Shown in pieces: positions 1 through 31,228 of a DNA stretch of 31,228 bases. This stretch comes from a virus: IMG/VR virus record IMGVR_UViG_3300030104_000199, positions 419 through 31,646 of that record; one strand, 5' to 3'. The first letter of the stretch is position 1. Each line of letters begins with the position of its first letter. The notes below the pieces were generated by a model that saw nothing but the letters and a program-made list of their open reading frames with translations, did not search any database and was not told the origin of the DNA. The translations under genes were made by a program, and so were the position numbers.

Positions 1-600
1 GCTACGGAAGATGAGCAATTTATGATTGGCTCTAAAGTATTTGCTGTTGGAGATGATGGTGAAGCGTCTGCATTAGAAGCAGGTAGCTACACTATGGAAA
101 ATGGCAACAAAATGACAATCGGAGATAAATCTGAAATCCTTGACTTAGGAGAAGAAAAAGAAGCTGAAGATGTTGAAGCATCTGAGGAAGAACTTTCTGA
201 AGAAGTAAAAGAAGAAACAAAAGAAGAGTTTGATGAGCCAGGTGAAACTCCTGCTGAAAAAGCTGATTGGGCAGAAACTTACGAAAAGTTAAAAGATAGA
301 GTTGCTGAATTAGAAGATAAAGTTTTTGGCAAAAAAGCAGAAGAAGAAACAGAAGAACTTTCTGCTGAAGAAAATACAGAAGAAGTAAAAGAAGAAGATA
401 AAACAGAAATGAGTTCAGAAGTTATAGGGGAACTTATGACACAAATAGAAGAACTTAAAGGTAAAATAGTAGAATTGAGTGGCGAACCTGCTACGGAAGG
501 TATTTCATACAATCCTGAAGGAACAAACACTACTTCTACTATGGATTTGGCTAAACTTTCAGCAGATGAAAGGGCAGCGTATTATATTAACACTAAATAA
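1..600 (+). CDS. Scaffold-like acidic protein, copy 1 (5' truncated by window edge)
   Basis: Probable capsid scaffold or assembly protein. The frame is open from base 1, and the visible part begins ATEDEQFMIG, which in the full-length second copy (28831-29529) lies about 36 residues inside the protein, so the true start is outside the window. The protein is extremely rich in Glu and Lys, with a coiled-coil-like stretch (about 85-165) and a conserved C-terminal end (ERAAYYINTK). Acidic, helical, low-complexity composition directly before the major capsid gene and downstream of a prohead protease is typical of phage scaffolds. The first third and last third match copy 2 closely, while the middle has diverged. 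The role is inferred from position and composition; no catalytic motif is visible. Confidence 0.7.
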   Translation, partial: ATEDEQFMIGSKVFAVGDDGEASALEAGSYTMENGNKMTIGDKSEILDLGEEKEAEDVEASEEELSEEVKEETKEEFDEPGETPAEKADWAETYEKLKDRVAELEDKVFGKKAEEETEELSAEENTEEVKEEDKTEMSSEVIGELMTQIEELKGKIVELSGEPATEGISYNPEGTNTTSTMDLAKLSADERAAYYINTK

Positions 601-608
601 TTTTAAAA

Positions 609-1607
609 ATGGCAAATAAAAAATCTGCTCTATTGAGCAAAAGACGTGATTTTGATATCACAGTAAATCCTGCTACTACTTATGCAGGAGAACAAGCGTT
701 GCCTTATGTTACTGCTGCGGTCAAATCTAACGACACGATTGCAAAAGGATATGTAAGACAAATGGATGGTTTAACAAGTAAAGCGGTAATTAGTAGTTTA
801 GTTACTACTGACCCTATTGTAGCTGCTGCGTGTGCATTTAATGATGCAGGTACTACTACATTAGGAGAAAGAGTGCTTACTGTAACTGATTTAAAAGTAA
901 ATCGTGAGGTATGCCGAAAAACTCTATATCCTACTTGGGTTGGAAAAAATATGACTCAAAATGGTGGACTTCCACAATCATTTGAAGATTTCTTGTTACA
1001 AGTTGTAGCAGGTCAAGCAGCTGCACAAATAGAAAACGGTATTTGGGTTGCAGATGCAAATAATATTTTTGGTGCAGGATTCTTGTCTGATGACGGTGTA
1101 TTCGACCAAAATGGTCTTAATGCTTCAGCTTGTGCAGACTTTACACAAGTAACAATGAATACTGGAGCAGCTACTACAGCAGCTAATATAGATGATGCTT
1201 TAGCAACAGTATATGCTAGTGTAACAGGTACTCATCCAGGATTAGAATTTAAACAAGGGTTTGGTTTCTATATGAACAACAAAATGTTTAGTTTCTATGC
1301 ACAATTCTTAGCAGGTACAGCTAATGGACAAGGTATTAACAATTTAGGTTTAACACTATCTCCTGATGGTTTATCTTATTTAGGACACCCTATTTACAGA
1401 TGTCCTGGTATGCCAGATGATGCTATTGTTGCAACTTATAAAGACAACTTAGTAGTAGGTTCTAATTTAGGAACTGATATGTTAGAAGCTTCTATCATAC
1501 CTACTTACCTTTATGATGGCTCAGACAACATTAGAGTTGTAATGAACTTTGGAATTGGTGTTCAATCAGGAATTGGAACTGACGGAGTAGTTGGTTGCAT
1601 ATTCTAA
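609..1607 (+). CDS. Major capsid protein, copy 1
   Basis: Probable HK97-type major capsid protein, 332 aa, which would form the icosahedral shell. It follows the scaffold gene by 8 bases. It lacks signal peptides or membrane segments and has the Ala/Gly/Asn-rich, mixed alpha-beta composition of shell proteins. Its C-terminal half carries segments shared with the second copy (QGINNLGL, RCPGMPDDAIVATYK, YDGSDNIRVVMNFG). The call rests on gene order (XkdF-like protease, scaffold, this gene, terminator), size and two-copy conservation; I recognise no short diagnostic motif. The copies differ most in the N-terminal 30 residues and around residues 160-200, and copy 1 is 5 residues longer. A strong terminator follows directly. 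Confidence 0.8.
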   Translation: MANKKSALLSKRRDFDITVNPATTYAGEQALPYVTAAVKSNDTIAKGYVRQMDGLTSKAVISSLVTTDPIVAAACAFNDAGTTTLGERVLTVTDLKVNREVCRKTLYPTWVGKNMTQNGGLPQSFEDFLLQVVAGQAAAQIENGIWVADANNIFGAGFLSDDGVFDQNGLNASACADFTQVTMNTGAATTAANIDDALATVYASVTGTHPGLEFKQGFGFYMNNKMFSFYAQFLAGTANGQGINNLGLTLSPDGLSYLGHPIYRCPGMPDDAIVATYKDNLVVGSNLGTDMLEASIIPTYLYDGSDNIRVVMNFGIGVQSGIGTDGVVGCIF

Positions 1608-1620
1608 AATGACCTTAAAT

Positions 1621-1646
1621 AGGGGGTTGAAATATACCCCCTTTTT
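1621..1646 (+). terminator. Intrinsic terminator after capsid gene, copy 1
   Basis: A 7-bp stem (1621-1627 with 1636-1642, AGGGGGT/ACCCCCT), an 8-base loop and a T-run through 1646. The equivalent hairpin in copy 2 (30536-30561) keeps the same geometry with two compensatory pair changes, so the structure is under selection. Because the tail-tube gene follows without an obvious new promoter, it may attenuate rather than fully stop transcription, giving more capsid than tail-tube mRNA. Confidence 0.85.
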
Positions 1647-1671
1647 ATTAACCTTTTAATAATATAATAAT

Positions 1672-2268
1672 ATGGCTTGTGATATAACAAGAGGACGATT
1701 GATAGATTGCAAAGATAGTATAGGTGGTTTAAAAGCTATTTACATTGCTAAAGGATATGCTAACAACATTGAGGCGGTTGCTACTATTGCTAATACTGAA
1801 ATGACAGCAGGGGGTTTTGCCACTTGGAGTTCTTCAGCAGGTAGTGCTACTACTGTATTTAAATATGATTTAGTACAGAATTTGTCTAGTATGACTGTAA
1901 ATATAAATTCTGATAATGCTAATGGTACTACTTTCTTTGAGCAAACACTATCTGTAACATTACAAAAGATAGATCATGATATGACTAATGAGTTAAGACT
2001 TATGGCTTATTCAAGAAGTCAAATTTTTGTTCAAGATTCTAATGACAATGTTTATTTATTAGGAACAGTAGGTGGTTGCTATGTAACAGGAGGAACTGTT
2101 ATTACAGGAACTGCTAAAGGAGATTTAACAGGATATACAATAGAATGGGGAGCAGAAGAAGCTAACGCTGTTATTCAGATAAAACCAGGAACTGATAAAA
2201 CAGATGCAAAATATCCGTTTGATGAATTAACTGATGTTGCTGCATTAACTATTACTGTAGGGACTTAA
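1672..2268 (+). CDS. Major tail-tube-like structural protein, copy 1
   Basis: 198-aa protein of a type commonly found after the capsid gene in Bacteroidota phages. It begins MACDITRGRLIDCKDSIGG; the part around residues 60-160 is predicted beta-rich and conserved with copy 2 (NGTTFFEQTLSV, LRLMAYSRSQIFVQD, GGCYVTGGT), followed by a TGYTIEWGAEE strand. Small beta-rich proteins of this kind fit a tail-tube subunit; a decoration protein is the main alternative. It lies between two terminators with its own 64-base upstream spacer, in both copies. The first 70 coding bases are almost identical between copies, the remainder less so. Confidence 0.6.
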   Translation: MACDITRGRLIDCKDSIGGLKAIYIAKGYANNIEAVATIANTEMTAGGFATWSSSAGSATTVFKYDLVQNLSSMTVNINSDNANGTTFFEQTLSVTLQKIDHDMTNELRLMAYSRSQIFVQDSNDNVYLLGTVGGCYVTGGTVITGTAKGDLTGYTIEWGAEEANAVIQIKPGTDKTDAKYPFDELTDVAALTITVGT

Positions 2269-2290
2269 TCGTTACTCTAAATAGATAAAG

Positions 2291-2315
2291 AAAGGGGTTT
2301 TATGCCCCTTTTTTT
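2291..2315 (+). terminator. Intrinsic terminator after tail-tube gene, copy 1
   Basis: AAAGGGG (2291-2297) pairs with CCCCTTT (2305-2311) across a 7-base loop, followed by T residues to 2315. The same element is at 31203-31227, identical in stem and loop. It closes the capsid/tail-tube unit just before the putative late promoter of the next unit. Confidence 0.85.
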
Positions 2316-2327
2316 GTACATTAAAAA

Positions 2328-6075: not shown

Positions 6076-6538
6076 TTTATTAATGGTAGTTGATGCCTCT
6101 GATACTACAGGGTCAGCATCAGGAACAAGCAAAAAAATAGAAGCTAGAAATGTTATAGCTATAGAGTCAGTTTCTCTATCTTCTGCACAAATTCAAGCCT
6201 TACATACTACTCCTATAGAGTTAATAGCTGCTCCAGGTAGTGGTTTTGCCATTCAAGTTCATAGTGTATTAGTTAATAACACTTATGTTTCATCTACAGA
6301 AACAAATAGAAGGACAGGAATAATAGCTTATGGAACTCCAGCAAATTTTTCTAATGAGATACTTAGAATTGAGAGTTGGATGAGAAACGTAGCTGCTAGT
6401 AATTCACAATATCCAGCTAATGGTTTTACGTTTAATACAGTATCTGACAATCAACCTCTCAAGATAGTAACTGACGCAGCAATAACAGGAGATTTTACCT
6501 CAGTTATAAATATAGGATATACAATAATAAAATTATGA
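6017..6538 (+). CDS. Putative fibre or head-decoration protein (173 aa)
   Basis: 173-aa beta-rich protein. The first 45 residues (LTDKSALAQQPAKDDLLMVV, then D.SDTTGSASGTSKKI) match the pattern seen at the N-terminus of phage fibre or tail-spike proteins that attach to the particle. The rest consists of predicted beta strands without catalytic motifs. It ends with an ATGA overlap with the outer-membrane-protein gene. It could be a short fibre, a head fibre or a decoration protein; receptor binding is possible but unproven. Confidence 0.45.
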   Translation: MASQRLTDKSALAQQPAKDDLLMVVDASDTTGSASGTSKKIEARNVIAIESVSLSSAQIQALHTTPIELIAAPGSGFAIQVHSVLVNNTYVSSTETNRRTGIIAYGTPANFSNEILRIESWMRNVAASNSQYPANGFTFNTVSDNQPLKIVTDAAITGDFTSVINIGYTIIKL

Positions 6539-7551
6539 TAAAATATATATTCTTATTATTACCTTTTTTAACCTTTAGTCAAGGTGGTTTTTTTAAGTAT
6601 TCTACATTTTATACTTCTATGAGTATGAATACTTCTATGATAGAATCAGAAGATTATCAAGCAATCGCTAAAGGGTATCAAGATATAACACAAGTAAATC
6701 CTTATGATTATAACCTAACTATAGGTATTCGTAAGATTGCTAGATTTGATTATGAGTATAAAGTAAAGACTTGGTATTATGGAACTGAAAAAGCTGTTGC
6801 AGATAATGTTACTATTGGTAATTCTAATGGTTGGGAGTATCTGCTTAATTATTCATTTATACGTAATCGTTCCGATAAGTTTACTGAGCAGAACTTTTGG
6901 CTTAGATATCTTGGAAACAGATGCGTAACTAAAATACAATATACTGACAACCAACGAGTAGATTTAAGGTACAATTCAATAGATTCTAGGTATAGAATAA
7001 AAAAGGGTAATTTTGACTTTACTATTGGTGCTAATTTTAGGATGCACGATCCTTATGGCATAAATCCTATAGAAGATTTCTGGATTCCTGGACAAACTTC
7101 TTTTCAACAATTAGCTTCTGATTTTGGATACTCTAGCCAATTTGTTAATGGCAGATGGCATTGGTATAAAGAGGGCGAAGTGATAGCAACGTCAAATGAT
7201 GAGTTCTACAAGCATTATTTCGGTCAAGCTATAGCGGAGTTCAACGAAAGAGAGTTAGACGCTCTAGGGTCACAAAATGAGCTTTCTGCGGTGTTTGGGG
7301 TGGCTTACTATAGCTATAATCCTAAATTTTGGCTACATATATGGGCAAATGTAATGCCTTTTCACTATGGATTAGATGATTATTTCTTTGAGTATGGCGA
7401 TGGCTTAGATAAGCTAGATTGGGATTCAGGAATGATATTAGGTTATAGAATCACAAAACATTTAGGAGTGTTTATAGAAGGGACTCATCAAAGATATTGG
7501 AATAAGCCATTATACGAGTCCAAATTTGGCTTTAATTATTTAGTATTTTAA
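6535..7551 (+). CDS. Exported outer-membrane beta-barrel-like protein
   Basis: 338-aa protein with a clear Sec signal peptide (MIKYIFLLLPFLTFSQ, cut after FSQ as in many flavobacterial exported proteins). The mature part is rich in alternating aromatic/polar strands (LTIGIRKIARFDYEYKVKTW, FDFTIGANFRM, LSAVFGVAYYSYNPKFWLHI) and ends in a terminal Phe (FGFNYLVF), the signature recognised by the BAM machinery. An outer-membrane barrel encoded by a phage suggests alteration of the infected cell surface, such as blocking a receptor to prevent superinfection. It is co-translated with the upstream fibre-like gene and lies 2 bases from the secreted protein downstream. The exact function is unknown. 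Confidence 0.65.
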   Translation: MIKYIFLLLPFLTFSQGGFFKYSTFYTSMSMNTSMIESEDYQAIAKGYQDITQVNPYDYNLTIGIRKIARFDYEYKVKTWYYGTEKAVADNVTIGNSNGWEYLLNYSFIRNRSDKFTEQNFWLRYLGNRCVTKIQYTDNQRVDLRYNSIDSRYRIKKGNFDFTIGANFRMHDPYGINPIEDFWIPGQTSFQQLASDFGYSSQFVNGRWHWYKEGEVIATSNDEFYKHYFGQAIAEFNERELDALGSQNELSAVFGVAYYSYNPKFWLHIWANVMPFHYGLDDYFFEYGDGLDKLDWDSGMILGYRITKHLGVFIEGTHQRYWNKPLYESKFGFNYLVF

Positions 7552-7553
7552 GT

Positions 7554-8234
7554 ATGAAAAAATTAGTATTATTATTTTTATTATTATCAAATTATGCGTT
7601 TAGTCAATCAAACTGTGAATTATGTGCCGAGCAAGGTGGTTTCTATTGTGGAGATGATGAAAGCAACTGGACTTCTTATAGTCCACTTGGTTGCGTCCCT
7701 AATGGTCTTAATGGTGTATTTTACCTTAATGACGGTTGGAGTGATTGTGTTGATGGTTCAGATGAAAATGGCTCAGATGCTACAACGCTAGGAGATTGTA
7801 ATGCCTATGGAGAAACTTGTGATACTGTATTTATAGAGATTCCTATAATACAATATGAAATAATTTTTGATACAATAATACAGACAGAATATCTAACTCA
7901 GATTGTAATAGATACGTTAGAGATAGAAACACTTGTGCCTGAATATATATATATAACTGATACGGTATATGCAGAAGTGCTAGACACAATGTTTATAGAC
8001 GTAATAGAATATGTTGATACTATTGTATATGATACAGTAGTTGAAATAGAATACGTTGAGTTTATAATAACTGAGTATTTGGACTGCCTTACAGGGTTGC
8101 CATGCAATACAGCTATTTTAGAACTTGACAAGAGTAAATTAAATAATAACCTATATAATCTTATGGGTGATGAAATTAGAAAACCCAATGGAATTTATAT
8201 AGAAAATGGTGAAATCAAATTTAAAATAAATTAA
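7554..8234 (+). CDS. Secreted LDLa-like protein with T9SS-like C-terminal signal
   Basis: 226 aa. Signal peptide at residues 1-18 (ends YAFSQ). Residues about 20-75 form a Cys-rich module with GGFYCGD, GCVP and GWSDCVDGSDE, matching the calcium-binding core of LDL-receptor class A repeats. Residues about 85-175 are a stalk with seven DT(V/I/L/M) units spaced irregularly in predicted beta strands (DTVF, DTII, DTLE, DTVY, DTMF, DTIV, DTVV). The last 28 residues (LYNLMGDEIRKPNGIYIENG and a basic end) resemble the end of type A T9SS sorting domains. Inference: it is exported by Sec, moved to the surface by the host T9SS and displayed as a stalked adhesion or shielding protein. The sorting domain is shorter than usual. 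Confidence 0.6.
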   Translation: MKKLVLLFLLLSNYAFSQSNCELCAEQGGFYCGDDESNWTSYSPLGCVPNGLNGVFYLNDGWSDCVDGSDENGSDATTLGDCNAYGETCDTVFIEIPIIQYEIIFDTIIQTEYLTQIVIDTLEIETLVPEYIYITDTVYAEVLDTMFIDVIEYVDTIVYDTVVEIEYVEFIITEYLDCLTGLPCNTAILELDKSKLNNNLYNLMGDEIRKPNGIYIENGEIKFKIN

Positions 8235-8236
8235 AT

Positions 8237-8419
8237 ATGGAAATTATAAAAAAAATCACAGCAAGTAAGAAATTTTGGTATGCTTTTGGAACATTAGCTT
8301 TATTGCTTTTTTCTGATAGCATAGGAATAAACGACCAAGAAGTTAATAACATAATTATATTAGCTTTAGGTCTTATAGTAGCTCAAGGATTAGCAGACCG
8401 TAAAGATTGTAAGAGATGA
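8237..8419 (+). CDS. Small holin-like membrane protein (60 aa)
   Basis: 60 aa with two predicted hydrophobic segments (FWYAFGTLALLLF, residues about 13-25, and VNNIIILALGLIVAQGL, about 36-52), a basic N-terminus and a charged C-terminus (DRKDCKR). Size and topology fit a class II holin or a holin partner. It opens the lysis cassette and overlaps the next start by 4 bases. A second holin candidate at 9529 suggests one of the two acts as antiholin or accessory protein. Confidence 0.5.
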   Translation: MEIIKKITASKKFWYAFGTLALLLFSDSIGINDQEVNNIIILALGLIVAQGLADRKDCKR

Positions 8420-8694
8420 AATTAAGCGAAAAGTCGGAATTAACTTTAGATTTAAAAACCATTGGTATAGTAATTGCTATGGCAGTATCTGTGTCAGGTA
8501 GCTATTTTACTCTTAAAGCAGACATTGAAGAAAACAAAAAAGCTCTTGAAAAGGGCAACTGGGTAAATGCTAAAGAATACGAACTGAAAGACGAATTGGT
8601 ACGAACTACTATAATGGGCAATAGTAAAAAGTTAGACGCTATAGAAGATAAATTAAACACTATAGACAGCCGACTTTACAACTTAAAAAAGTAA
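8416..8694 (+). CDS. Membrane-anchored coiled-coil protein (92 aa)
   Basis: N-terminal transmembrane segment (TIGIVIAMAVSVSGSYFTL, residues about 15-33) followed by a charged helical region that should form a coiled coil (to residue 92, ending RLYNLKK). This layout is shared by XhlA-like accessory lysis proteins and inner-membrane spanins. It is linked to the upstream holin-like gene by an ATGA overlap and lies 2 bases before the thioredoxin-like gene. I favour a lysis accessory role, without a firm family. Confidence 0.45.
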   Translation: MKLSEKSELTLDLKTIGIVIAMAVSVSGSYFTLKADIEENKKALEKGNWVNAKEYELKDELVRTTIMGNSKKLDAIEDKLNTIDSRLYNLKK

Positions 8695-8696
8695 TT

Positions 8697-9038
8697 ATGA
8701 ATTTAGGTTATATATTACAAATTTTAATGGCATTATTCTTTTTTGCTGTAGGTTTGTGTATGTCCCAAGTGTCTGTGATTCATTTTAATAGTGAATGGAA
8801 CTCAGATAATAGCTTTAATATAGATGAGCTAAATGACTGTGAAAAATCAGACGTGGTTATATGCGACAGTCCTGAACTAAAAGACAAACACAAAATCCTT
8901 TCTGTTCCTACTATTATTATATTTGACAACGGCAACGAAATTGCCAGATTTGAAGCTAATATAATGATGCAATTAGAGGCAACAAGAAAGGAAATACAAA
9001 AAGAGATAGAGAAGATTCACTTAGCTAAATTTGAATGA
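8697..9038 (+). CDS. Exported thioredoxin-fold protein lacking CxxC
   Basis: 113 aa. Residues 1-24 form a hydrophobic signal peptide or membrane anchor ending CMSQ. The rest follows the thioredoxin fold: SVIHFNSEWNSDNSF occupies the place of the usual FWAxWCxxC strand and active site, and HKILSVPTIIIFDNGNEIAR is the classic cis-proline strand pair. Both active-site cysteines are replaced (WNSDN), so disulfide exchange is excluded by what I see; a binding or chaperone role is more likely. It ends with a charged helix. It sits inside the lysis cassette with an ATGA overlap to the endolysin, hinting at a periplasmic function during lysis. Confidence 0.65.
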   Translation: MNLGYILQILMALFFFAVGLCMSQVSVIHFNSEWNSDNSFNIDELNDCEKSDVVICDSPELKDKHKILSVPTIIIFDNGNEIARFEANIMMQLEATRKEIQKEIEKIHLAKFE

Positions 9039-9532
9039 AATTATCAAAAAACTTTACACTACAAGAGCTAACACGATCTAACACAGCATTAAGATTGGGA
9101 ATAGATAACACACCCTCTAAAGAGGGAATAATGAAATTGACTATATTAGCCACTTCAGTCCTCCAGTTACTGCGTGACCGCATTGGAGCTTTGAGGATTA
9201 CAAGTGGCTATAGGTCACCAGAATTAAATACTGCTATTGGTGGTAGCAATAAATCACAGCATACTAAATGCGAAGCAGTAGACATTCAATACGTCAAACG
9301 TGGACGTATGGATAACCTTTTAATATACCAAGCACTAATAGATTTAGATATTGACTTTGACCAATGTATATTGGAATTTGGGGATAGCACAGCAACAAGC
9401 GACCCTACAAGTCCTGCTTGGATTCATTTAAGCTATAAAATAACTGATAATAGAAGGCAGGTATTAGTAGCTTATAAAGACGATAATAACAAAACAAAAT
9501 ACAGACCTTTAATTAAATACAATTCTATATGA
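9035..9532 (+). CDS. Endolysin, M15-type peptidase
   Basis: 165-aa member of the peptidase M15 (VanY/D-Ala-D-Ala-like) family, cutting peptide cross-links in peptidoglycan for lysis. Visible motifs are: LRITSGYRSPELN, SQHTKCEAVDIQ (zinc-binding His and Asp) and SPAWIHLSY (third zinc ligand His). Length is typical of single-domain phage M15A endolysins. There is no signal peptide, so release depends on the holin. It overlaps both the thioredoxin-like gene upstream and the holin downstream by 4 bases, a compact lysis operon. Confidence 0.9.
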   Translation: MKLSKNFTLQELTRSNTALRLGIDNTPSKEGIMKLTILATSVLQLLRDRIGALRITSGYRSPELNTAIGGSNKSQHTKCEAVDIQYVKRGRMDNLLIYQALIDLDIDFDQCILEFGDSTATSDPTSPAWIHLSYKITDNRRQVLVAYKDDNNKTKYRPLIKYNSI

Positions 9533-9906
9533 AATTCTTAAGTAAACTATTTGGCAATATGTCTTTAGATGTTAATAAACTTGTTGATAATGTTGTAACT
9601 ACTGACGAAGAACGTAAAGAATTAAAAATTAAATTTGAACAAATCTTCCTTGAAGCTAGAGCAAATGCAGAAGAACAAATAACTAGAAGATGGGAAGCAG
9701 ATTCAAAAGCAGGGTGGCTACCTGCTAACATCAGACCTTTAACACTAGCTTTTTTAGTAGTATCTACTGTACTGCTAATTTTTATTGAAGGTGGAGTTAT
9801 AGATTTTCAAGTTAAAGATACTTGGATAGACCTACTTCAATTAACATTAATAACGGTGATAGGAGCATACTTCGGTGGAAGAAGTATAGAGAAGGTTAAA
9901 AAATAA
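9529..9906 (+). CDS. Holin, 3TM GTA-type-like
   Basis: 125 aa. N-terminal half is charged and helical (EERKELKIKFEQIFLEA). ITRRWEADSKAGWLPANIRP then precedes the hydrophobic segments LAFLVVSTVLLIFIEGGV and LLQLTLITVIGAYFGG. The RRWEAD...W...NIRP motif before the membrane part is characteristic of the Holin_3TMs (GTA holin) family. It would form membrane lesions that let the M15 endolysin reach the wall. It starts 4 bases inside the endolysin gene and ends just before the metallophosphoesterase frame. Confidence 0.8.
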   Translation: MKFLSKLFGNMSLDVNKLVDNVVTTDEERKELKIKFEQIFLEARANAEEQITRRWEADSKAGWLPANIRPLTLAFLVVSTVLLIFIEGGVIDFQVKDTWIDLLQLTLITVIGAYFGGRSIEKVKK

Positions 9907-28830: not shown

Positions 28831-29529
28831 ATGGGAACAATAGAAAAAATCTTAAATATCTTAAAAATGAAAAATGAACCAAAATCTTATAGCGTAAAAA
28901 TGTACGCTGAAATGAAATTAGACGATGGTCGTATTATTGCTACAGAAGATGAGCAATTTATGATTGGCTCTAAAGTATTTGCTGTTGGAGATGATGGCGA
29001 AGCATCTGCGTTAGAAGCAGGTAGCTACACTATGGAAAATGGCAACAAAATGACAATCGGAGATAAATCTGAAATCCTTGACTTGGGAGAAGAAAAAGAA
29101 GCTGAAGATGTTGAAGCATCTGAGGAAGAACTTTCTGAAGAAGTAGCTGAGGAATCTAAAGAAGAAGAATTAGCTGAAGAAGCTGATGTCGCTGACTGGA
29201 AAGGAATGGAAATTAGAATTAAAAATTTAGAGGATGCTGTAGCTGATTTGAAAGCTGATAAAGAAGAAGCATCTGCTGAATTATCTAAAGAAGAATCTGA
29301 AGAAAAAACATCTGAAGAATCTGAAGATAAAACAGAAATGAGTTCAGAAGTTATGGGGGAACTTATGACACAAATAGAAGAACTTAAAGGTAAGATAGTA
29401 GAATTAAGTGGCGAACCTGCTACGGAAGGTATTTCATACAATCCTGAAGGAACACATTTTAACTCTACTATTGATTTAAAGAAACTGTCTACTAAAGAGA
29501 GGGCAGCATATTACATTAACAATAAATAA
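28831..29529 (+). CDS. Scaffold-like acidic protein, copy 2 (complete)
   Basis: 232 aa. The N-terminal 36 residues absent from copy 1 read MGTIEKILNILKMKNEPKSY, then a beta part YAEMKLDDGRIIATEDEQF. After a conserved segment (GSKVFAVGDDGEASALEAGS), the protein becomes a Glu/Lys/Ser-rich coiled coil with ADWKGMEIRIKNLEDAV. The C-terminus (LMTQIEELKGKIVELSGEPA, then STKERAAYYINNK) is shared with copy 1. The middle (about 100-160) is where copies differ in length and sequence. The likely role is an internal scaffold cleaved by the upstream protease. Confidence 0.75.
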   Translation: MGTIEKILNILKMKNEPKSYSVKMYAEMKLDDGRIIATEDEQFMIGSKVFAVGDDGEASALEAGSYTMENGNKMTIGDKSEILDLGEEKEAEDVEASEEELSEEVAEESKEEELAEEADVADWKGMEIRIKNLEDAVADLKADKEEASAELSKEESEEKTSEESEDKTEMSSEVMGELMTQIEELKGKIVELSGEPATEGISYNPEGTHFNSTIDLKKLSTKERAAYYINNK

Positions 29530-29537
29530 TTTTAAAA

Positions 29538-30521
29538 ATGGCAAATAATAAATATAATTTAAGTAAAGATTATCAGTTTGATATTACCGTAACTGATAAC
29601 ACCTATGCAGGTAAATTAGCTTTGCCTTATGTGACTGCTGCAGTCAAATCTCCTGACACGATTGCAAAAGGATATGTAAGACAAATAGACGGTTTAAATA
29701 GTAAAGCAGTAATATCTAACTTAGGAGTTTCTGATCCTGTAGTAGCTGCTGCTTGTGCTTTTTCATCAGGTAATGATACATCATTAACTGAACAAGTTTT
29801 AACGCTTACTGATATGAAAGTAAATGAAGAAATTTGTAGAGGAACAATTTTTCCTACTTGGATTGGCGAAAATATGGATAGAAATGGAAACTTACCAGGA
29901 ACATTCGAAGACTTTTTATTATCAGCAGTTGCAGGAAAAGCAGGTGCGCATATAGAAAATATGATTTGGAAAGGTTCTTCTCCATTTGGAACAGGTTTCT
30001 TGTCTAATGATGGAACACAAGATGAGGCAGGTGCAGATGCAAGTCAACTAAAAGATTTTACAGAAGTGGATTTTGCAAATGCTCTAGCTGCTTCTGACAT
30101 CTTAACTGATATGGCTTCAGTATATGATGCAGCAGTTGGTATTGCAGGTTTGACTTCTAAGCCAGGTTTTGGTTTCTATATGAATGCTAAAACTTATGCT
30201 TTCTTAATCCAAGCACTAGCTAACGCAGGTTCTAATCAAGGTATTAACAGTTTAGGTGTAGCACAATCATTTGAAGGCATTACATACTTTGGATTCCCAA
30301 TTTACGTATGTCCTGGAATGTTTAATGACGTTATTGTTGCAACTTACAAAGAGAACTTAGTATTTGGAACTAACCTAGCTACTGATTGGACAGAGGCAAG
30401 AGTTATACCAACTTACCAATTTGATGGTTCTGATAATGTAAGAATTGTAATGAACTTTGCATTAGGAGTGCAAGTTGCTGTAGCAGCAGATGGTGTTTAC
30501 GGTTCAACTGTTTGGACTTAA
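29538..30521 (+). CDS. Major capsid protein, copy 2
   Basis: 327 aa, homologous over its full length to the protein at 609-1607: shared YAGxxALPYVTAAVKS, SNQGINSLGV-like and VCPGMFNDVIVATYKENLV segments, and a C-terminal YQFDGSDNVRIVMNFALGVQ. Substitutions are spread throughout, including in the N-terminal 15 residues and the region 150-200. Position after protease and scaffold, with a late-promoter-like element before the scaffold gene, makes it the expected capsid gene of the complete operon. Whether both versions coexist in one phage is unresolved. Confidence 0.8.
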   Translation: MANNKYNLSKDYQFDITVTDNTYAGKLALPYVTAAVKSPDTIAKGYVRQIDGLNSKAVISNLGVSDPVVAAACAFSSGNDTSLTEQVLTLTDMKVNEEICRGTIFPTWIGENMDRNGNLPGTFEDFLLSAVAGKAGAHIENMIWKGSSPFGTGFLSNDGTQDEAGADASQLKDFTEVDFANALAASDILTDMASVYDAAVGIAGLTSKPGFGFYMNAKTYAFLIQALANAGSNQGINSLGVAQSFEGITYFGFPIYVCPGMFNDVIVATYKENLVFGTNLATDWTEARVIPTYQFDGSDNVRIVMNFALGVQVAVAADGVYGSTVWT

Positions 30522-30535
30522 TAGATATTTTAAAT

Positions 30536-30561
30536 GGGGAGTTGTAATAGACTCCCCTTTT
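30536..30561 (+). terminator. Intrinsic terminator after capsid gene, copy 2
   Basis: GGGGAGT (30536-30542) pairs with ACTCCCC (30551-30557), an 8-base loop, and TTTT to 30561. Relative to 1621-1642, the outermost pair changed from A-T to G-C and the fifth pair from G-C to A-T, both compensatory. Confidence 0.85.
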
Positions 30562-30586
30562 ATTAACCTTTTAATAATATAATAAT

Positions 30587-31180
30587 ATGGCTTGTGATAT
30601 AACAAGAGGACGATTGATAGATTGCAAAGATAGTATAGGTGGTTTAAAAGCTATTTATATTGCTAAATCATACAGCAACAATGTTTCTGCTGTGGCTACA
30701 ATCAATACTACTGAAATGACAACAGCAGGTTTTGCTACTTGGTCTTGTTGCGGTGGTACGGTTGAAGTCTTTAAATATGATTTAGTACAGAATCTTTCTA
30801 GTCTTACGGTTAATATAAATTCTGATAATGCTAATGGTACTACTTTCTTTGAGCAAACACTTTCTGTAGTTTTACAAAAAATAGACCACGATATGACTAA
30901 TGAATTAAGACTTATGGCTTATTCAAGAAGTCAAATCTTTGTTCAAGATGCTAACGACAATGTTTATTTATTAGGAATAGACGGTGGTTGTTATGTAACT
31001 GGTGGCACAGTAGTAACAGGAACTGCTAAAGGAGATATGAGTGGATACACAATAGAATGGGGTGCAGAAGAAAAGAACGCTTTAATACAGCTTCCTGCTA
31101 GTGCAGGTGCTGCTACAGCTAAATATCCATTCGATGGATTAACTGATGAAGCTAACTTAACTATTACTGTAGGAACTTAA
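30587..31180 (+). CDS. Major tail-tube-like structural protein, copy 2
   Basis: 197 aa, closely related to 1672-2268: identical start MACDITRGRLIDCKDSIGG and shared ATWS, VFKYDLVQNLSSLTV, NGTTFFEQTLSV, LRLMAYSRSQIFVQD and GGCYVTGGT segments. Copy 2 has a WSCCGG loop with two cysteines where copy 1 has WSSSAGSA, and the C-terminal 45 residues have diverged. A tail-tube subunit is the likeliest role. The gene is followed by the last terminator of the window. Confidence 0.6.
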   Translation: MACDITRGRLIDCKDSIGGLKAIYIAKSYSNNVSAVATINTTEMTTAGFATWSCCGGTVEVFKYDLVQNLSSLTVNINSDNANGTTFFEQTLSVVLQKIDHDMTNELRLMAYSRSQIFVQDANDNVYLLGIDGGCYVTGGTVVTGTAKGDMSGYTIEWGAEEKNALIQLPASAGAATAKYPFDGLTDEANLTITVGT

Positions 31181-31202
31181 TCGTTACTCTAAATAGATAA
31201 AG

Positions 31203-31227
31203 AAAGGGGTTTTATGCCCCTTTTTTT
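31203..31227 (+). terminator. Intrinsic terminator after tail-tube gene, copy 2
   Basis: AAAGGGG (31203-31209) and CCCCTTT (31217-31223) with a TTTTATG loop and T-run to 31227, identical to 2291-2315. The window ends one base later, at the equivalent of base 2316. Confidence 0.85.
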
Positions 31228-31228
31228 G

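Follow-up and report, generated by a model that had tools for sequence, protein, structure and literature searches.

Phages of marine Flavobacteriales are mostly uncultured. It is already known that a phage can encode cargo for the type IX secretion system (T9SS): in the accessible text of the Cryophage report, phage-encoded proteins with T9SS sorting domains are called a "unique occurrence," are proposed to hijack the host's system, and are tied to possible superinfection exclusion (PMC7468147). In Cryophage, the type A sorting domains are carried by variable enzymes and by a PA14 protein, and that text makes no mention of the features described below: a cassette with a beta-barrel, a coiled-coil protein, and a pseudo-thioredoxin; a tip that resembles the LDL receptor class A (LDLa) domain; or a stalk of glycosylation sequons. 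ORFs with T9SS sorting domains also lie near the head genes of crAss-BACON cluster 2 phages; these are gut phages with BACON domains, and the accessible text on them does not mention such a cassette (PMC6949934). As far as the open-access literature could be consulted, we found no published account of the conserved cassette or of the LDLa variant.

In bacteria, genes for cargo with type B C-terminal signals (CTDs) often occur together with genes for PorP/SprF shuttles, and the two products bind each other (PMC9143113, PMC12618676). As in the SprB-SprF and PG1035-PorP pairs of those papers, the putative T9SS cargo of the phage is genetically linked to a specialised barrel in the outer membrane, and the barrels are of similar size. 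By sequence, however, the phage barrel falls outside PorP/SprF; it models with 12 rather than 14 strands and comes with cargo that has type A or short CTDs. Short CTDs are known from Prevotella intermedia (Ye et al. 2025, PMC11969387). They are 43-55 aa long and have Tyr and Gly in motif B, GxYI in motif D, and a basic motif E, with 1-6 aa between motifs B and D; three strands are predicted, and the cleavage site has a small residue and Ile.

The window analysed here is a stretch of 31,228 nucleotides from a virus (IMG/VR record IMGVR_UViG_3300030104_000199, positions 419 to 31,646), and the genes described from 6535 to 9906 are all on its plus strand. The ORF at 7554-8234 encodes a protein of 226 aa. 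The sequence-only reading had divided this protein into a signal peptide, an LDLa-like module, a DT-rich stalk, and a C-terminal tail, and this architecture holds up in its viral relatives and their alignment. Relatives are present on at least 126 IMG/VR contigs, of which we retrieved 80 for locus counts (the LDLa-stalk set), and the aligned relatives are 55-84% identical to the protein. Because it has at least 126 viral relatives and an invariant core, the ORF is not a chance reading frame. (A search of INPHARED returned no relatives.) In an alignment of 46 sequences, the invariant positions on the N-terminal side are C21, C24, C32, GDD, NW, T, GCV, D60, W62, D64, C65, D70, E71, and C82; toward the C-terminus they are the DC..G.PC that precedes the tail and, inside the tail, G205, I216, and G219. 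The family has nine cysteines, most of them within the invariant core. The putative signal peptide (residues 1-18, 7554-7607; MKKLVLLFLLLSNYAFSQ) was read from the sequence. It ends in AFSQ, Q18 is invariant across the 46 sequences, and an AlphaFold model places a helix at residues 2-26. AlphaFold, which had been put forward as a check, modelled the tail (pLDDT 71-77) but was poor elsewhere (mean pLDDT 48.5 for the whole protein), so the whole-protein model was unfit for a fold search.

The cysteine module runs from C21 to C82 (7614-7799). FYCGDD, GCVP, and NDGWSDCVDGSDE are all present, and the module includes a calcium-box-like segment, YLNDGWSDCVDGSDE (7722-7766). The protein by itself does not pass as an LDLa domain: it scored 13.3 bits against PF00057, whose Pfam gathering score is 24.1 bits. 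Among the 46 relatives, 33 matched PF00057 at E ≤ 1 (best E = 0.00043). A profile of the module matched LDL-receptor family chains in the PDB, including LRP2 (E = 9e-13 summed over many repeats, with 16.5 bits for the best single repeat) and VLDLR (E = 1e-5), and NDGWEDCVDASDE aligned to the CDG..DC.D.SDE of these chains. The four acidic positions D60, D64, D70, and E71, which we take to be calcium ligands as in LDLa structures, are invariant across the 46 sequences and align with their counterparts in LDLa chains. The module thus shares with LDLa a small, cysteine-rich form and the calcium-box pattern D.G..DC.D..DE, but the cysteine of CDG is replaced by Asn (NDG) in nearly all of the phage relatives. 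With one canonical cysteine absent, the six-cysteine pattern of LDLa (C1-C3, C2-C5, and C4-C6 pairing) is incomplete, and the phage module has additional N-terminal CxxC and GDDxxNW segments. By sequence, we would therefore assign it partial membership in the LDLa family.

The label "eukaryote-like" fits this module less well than "bacterial LDLa-like." A Marinimicrobia protein has a near-identical module that retains the CDG cysteine and is followed by more LDLa repeats; the protein passes Pfam LDLa at 47.6 bits. The module is also found in marine Flavobacteriales genomes, in one case (L192) directly after a signal peptide. These close versions in marine Flavobacteriales and Marinimicrobia argue against a recent eukaryotic import into the phage. 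In a secreted Marinimicrobia protein (L082:5218-7344), LDLa repeats occur together with a lamin tail domain.

The stalk (7821-8084) contains the seven DT(V/I/L/M) units that had been noticed in the sequence, and such units are enriched over chance. They match the general O-glycosylation sequon of Bacteroidota, D(S/T)(A/I/L/V/M/T) (PMC8550257, PMC12871550, PMC11969387). Stalks in the family average 6.3 occurrences of D[ST][AILVMT], as compared to 0.68 in shuffled sequences (9-fold enrichment), and 479 of the 487 D[ST]x triplets conform to the sequon. The protein has 3.1 sequons per 100 aa, while every other ORF in the window that we tested has at most 1.03. Relatives have 3 to 12 DT units per stalk, while the segment from DC..G.PC to the end of the protein stays at 50-52 aa. 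We infer that the stalk is an O-glycosylated stem; a structural repeat is the alternative.

The C-terminal tail is 42 aa long (8106-8231; YNLMGDEIRKPNGIYIENGEIKFKIN). The sequence-only reading likened it to the type A sorting signals of the T9SS, and in its strict form this does not hold. TIGR04183, for which we required at least 23 bits and a location at the C-terminus, had no match in the protein or in its 45 aligned relatives, and none of the curated T9SS profiles matched any of these sequences. A profile-profile comparison with canonical CTDs gave a modest score (60%) with mostly motif B aligned, and the N-terminal half of a canonical CTD, with its PNP, has no counterpart in the tail. What the tail does resemble is the short CTDs of P. 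intermedia, in motif B (YNLMG), motif D (GIYI), motif E (K.K), the short spacing between motifs B and D, the predicted strands, and the position at the C-terminus. Across the alignment, the Tyr and Gly of motif B and the Ile of motif D are invariant, and the Gly and Tyr of GxY are each at least 90% conserved. AlphaFold places short strands at residues 213-217 and 220-224. The P. intermedia signals differ in being cellular, from Bacteroidales, and 43-55 aa long, while the phage tail is marine flavobacterial and spans about 40-42 aa after GxPC. When we searched 3,846 phage ORFs with a regular expression for the tail motifs, all of the 109 matches were stalk proteins with a signal peptide. The top PDB match to the tail profile was the extreme C-terminus of an arabinanase (4kca, residues 653-679 of 692, E = 0.03); a weaker match, amid others at chance level, was to the C-terminus of a beta-helix protein (7jvi, residues 815-840 of 847, E = 1.0). 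In HBP35, the last 22 residues, which include motifs D and E, are needed for the T9SS-dependent surface export of GFP (PMC3120885). The phage tail fits a short-type T9SS CTD, and we predict that it is an export signal.

The same tail is present in 4 of 298 Flavobacteriales genomes (E = 1e-16 to 1e-20). Its carriers are a leucine-rich repeat (LRR) protein, GCTDP-repeat proteins, and one other, all of which have DT stalks, and their neighbours are of host type, such as genes for an M28-like peptidase and a gamma-glutamyltranspeptidase (named by eye from their sequences). Each of the four genomes encodes SprA and 25-40 canonical CTDs. Each genome has only one protein with this type of tail, so it may not be a general sorting signal in the hosts. 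From the shared modules, we suspect that marine Flavobacteriales are the hosts of these phages.

The sequence-only reading considered the protein without its genomic context and without a glycosylation reading of the DT units; we add both. In the LDLa-stalk set, the gene for an outer-membrane beta-barrel is closely upstream in 79 of the 80 loci. Starting from the barrel instead, the tail protein is closely downstream in all 71 of the barrel loci that are not cut off. In the window, the barrel (6535-7551) is 338 aa long and has a signal peptide. AlphaFold models it with about 12 strands (pLDDT 74), and in the PDB it matches the porin NanC by fold (E = 2e-5). By sequence it is not a member of PorP_SprF, as there was no Pfam hit and hhalign to PF11751 gave 8.8%, in the signal peptide region only. 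We also rejected the idea that it is a host gene: it occurs in 1 of 298 genomes of the host order, and the contig concerned is also listed in IMG/VR as a virus. Among viral models, foldseek found one homologue of the barrel at 31% identity and otherwise generic barrels, and three barrel variants had no match in INPHARED.

Downstream of the LDLa-stalk gene are a small holin-like membrane protein (8237-8419; weakly similar to the holin family phrog_9987, E = 0.0067), related families of which adjoin the gene in many loci; TMCC (8416-8694), a protein of 92 aa with one transmembrane segment and a coiled coil, which is present in 70 of the 80 loci; and a secreted or membrane-tethered pseudo-thioredoxin (8697-9038), which is present in 73 of the 80. 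The pseudo-thioredoxin family matches thioredoxin-domain chains in the PDB (E = 6e-10), which indicates a thioredoxin fold, but it lacks the redox-active CxxC: the active-site motif is NxxN in 151 of 161 sequences and CxxC in none. In 30 aligned members, W-N-x-x-N replaces W-C-x-x-C with both Asn invariant, and the proline-threonine is retained. (In INPHARED, the pseudo-thioredoxin had only weak, generic thioredoxin-like matches.) Two lysis genes come next, encoding an M15 peptidase endolysin (9035-9532; PF08291, E = 2.5e-17; phrog_894, E = 8e-31) and a holin (9529-9906; phrog_3427, E = 2.5e-21). The cassette is found in phages with differing structural genes, and the median identity of the barrel across those lineages is 59.9%.

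A relative of the barrel on a contig from a Flavobacteriales metagenome-assembled genome (also an IMG/VR record) adjoins a secreted protein of 994 aa, and this protein has a canonical CTD (TIGR04183, E = 1.7e-14, residues 928-994 of 994). The barrel of that contig matched at least 541 viral contigs. We retrieved 80 of these (the barrel set) and called CTDs with an HMM built from host CTDs. The 80 loci contained 71 ORFs with a CTD, which was at the C-terminus in 70 of them. In 70 of the 71 cases the ORF lay within five ORFs of the barrel, with 48 of these immediately upstream (Fisher p = 1e-20, with related loci counted as independent). About 70 of the 80 barrel loci thus encode canonical T9SS cargo beside the barrel. 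All ten of the cargo proteins that we tested with TIGR04183 (the 994-aa protein and nine others) passed, with E values from 1e-6 to 2e-14 and matches that end within one residue of the C-terminus. The LDLa-stalk protein thus occupies the slot of a T9SS cargo.

Several of the large phages have a stalk protein of 166-201 aa that carries the short tail without an LDLa module (L309:6798-7298 and its relatives in L305, L306, L317, L331, and L327), and these proteins adjoin the cassette with canonical cargo. As the short tail is found on proteins that lack the LDLa module, it is modular. One phage contig of 245,646 bases (IMGVR_UViG_3300030098_004828; L356 and L358) has two barrels with CTD cargo near each. 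In another locus (L338:3419-3922), a second secreted protein, of 167 aa, is encoded upstream of the barrel; it ends in VYIDIYGRRYHTQPDGLSIMNRRIYFKIK, which is apparently another short-CTD variant.

We consider it probable (roughly 0.7) that the phage-encoded protein is displayed on the cell surface via the T9SS. Both of the profiles named in the sequence-only reading, for LDLa and for the type A CTD, fail on the single protein, but its proposal of export by the host's T9SS is supported in three other ways: the tail matches short CTDs as well as the tails that surface proteins bear in T9SS-positive host genomes; larger phages have canonical TIGR04183 cargo in this slot; and the stalk consists of Bacteroidota O-glycosylation sequons. 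The protein would be exported by Sec via its signal peptide, and its DT stalk would probably be O-glycosylated in the periplasm at D(S/T)(hydrophobic) sequons. The host T9SS would recognise the short CTD at the C-terminus and carry the protein across the outer membrane. At the surface of the infected cell, there would then be an LDLa-like tip, probably stabilised by calcium, on a glycosylated stem.

The surface protein belongs to a four-gene envelope cassette, together with a coiled-coil protein placed in the inner membrane, a putatively periplasmic, redox-dead protein with a thioredoxin fold, and the barrel. The barrel would be devoted to the surface protein, anchoring or shuttling it in the way that SprF serves SprB. 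Our tentative proposal is that marine flavophages have a widespread system for remodelling the host envelope, in which the barrel is a phage-specific shuttle or anchor for cargo that is exported by the host T9SS, working with the redox-dead thioredoxin and the coiled-coil protein; this would be a viral counterpart of SprB-SprF that is built on an unrelated barrel.

For the purpose of surface display, the sequence-only reading had offered blocked receptors, altered adhesion, or protection from grazers as possibilities. The leading candidate, which we hold loosely, is late shielding of the infected cell's surface, either against superinfection or against the loss of progeny on debris. That the barrel changes so little across phage lineages weakens this idea, because such constancy points to a host target that is itself conserved and less to a receptor used by one phage. 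The main rival to shielding is a role in lysis, because the lysis genes adjoin the cassette. TMCC, the pseudo-thioredoxin, and the barrel might take the role of spanins and bridge the two membranes; the surface protein might then loosen or mark the outer membrane, with T9SS routing doing nothing more than positioning one component. Besides the M15 endolysin and holin in the window, there is an M15 peptidase nearby in 37 of the 80 loci of the LDLa-stalk set and a holin in 41. TMCC resembles an inner-membrane spanin, no spanin was recognised when the ten proteins surrounding the gene were compared with PHROG, and a crude lipobox scan turned up no plausible lipoprotein that could be the outer-membrane spanin. 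However, the cassette of large phages can lie away from endolysin genes, spanins offer no parallel to a cargo of about 1,000 aa, and neither a thioredoxin fold nor T9SS cargo is a feature of spanins. We consider a lysis module unlikely.

It is more doubtful that the tail is a docking peptide for the phage barrel on its periplasmic side, which would leave the protein in the periplasm or lining the outer membrane from within. Two points favour it: the barrel and the tail protein are constantly adjacent (79/80 and 71/71 loci), and the tail corresponds to no more than the C-terminal half of a canonical CTD. But host proteins bear the same tail, even though the single barrel in host-order genomes is on a virus contig, and related barrels adjoin canonical T9SS cargo. 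Similarly improbable is a calcium-dependent adhesin that aggregates kin cells or attaches them to particles, which would raise the density of hosts at burst. LDLa-like and GCTDP-repeat modules are known from secreted proteins of these hosts, and the stalk varies from 3 to 12 units in length, but the LDLa-like tip has stayed highly conserved instead of diversifying. Finally, the gene's position between structural and lysis genes could suggest a tail fibre or other virion component with incidental likenesses to a signal peptide and a CTD, but we set this aside as very unlikely, given that a segment resembling a signal peptide opens the barrel, the 7554-8234 protein, and the thioredoxin-like protein alike, that host surface proteins share the C-terminal tail, and that canonical T9SS cargo takes this slot in other phages.

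The cassette spans phages of about 30 to 245 kb and at least 541 contigs, and it would use a secretion machine that is specific to one phylum. If our preferred reading of T9SS-routed display is correct, then viruses would take over type IX secretion regularly, and the Cryophage case would no longer be a "unique occurrence." The tail would also show that short T9SS signals are not confined to Prevotella and exist in a virus, and the cassette would represent a rarely noticed route by which phages remodel the exterior of their hosts.

The two ends of the window (1-2316 and 28939-31228) are diverged copies of one three-gene module, with 75.8% DNA identity. The module encodes an acidic protein, a capsid-like protein (609-1607 and 29538-30521; phrog_11320/phrog_1623), and a protein of 198 or 197 aa. 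The copies reflect either a diverged tandem duplication of capsid genes or a chimera in which sequence from two strains with a circular genome has been joined.
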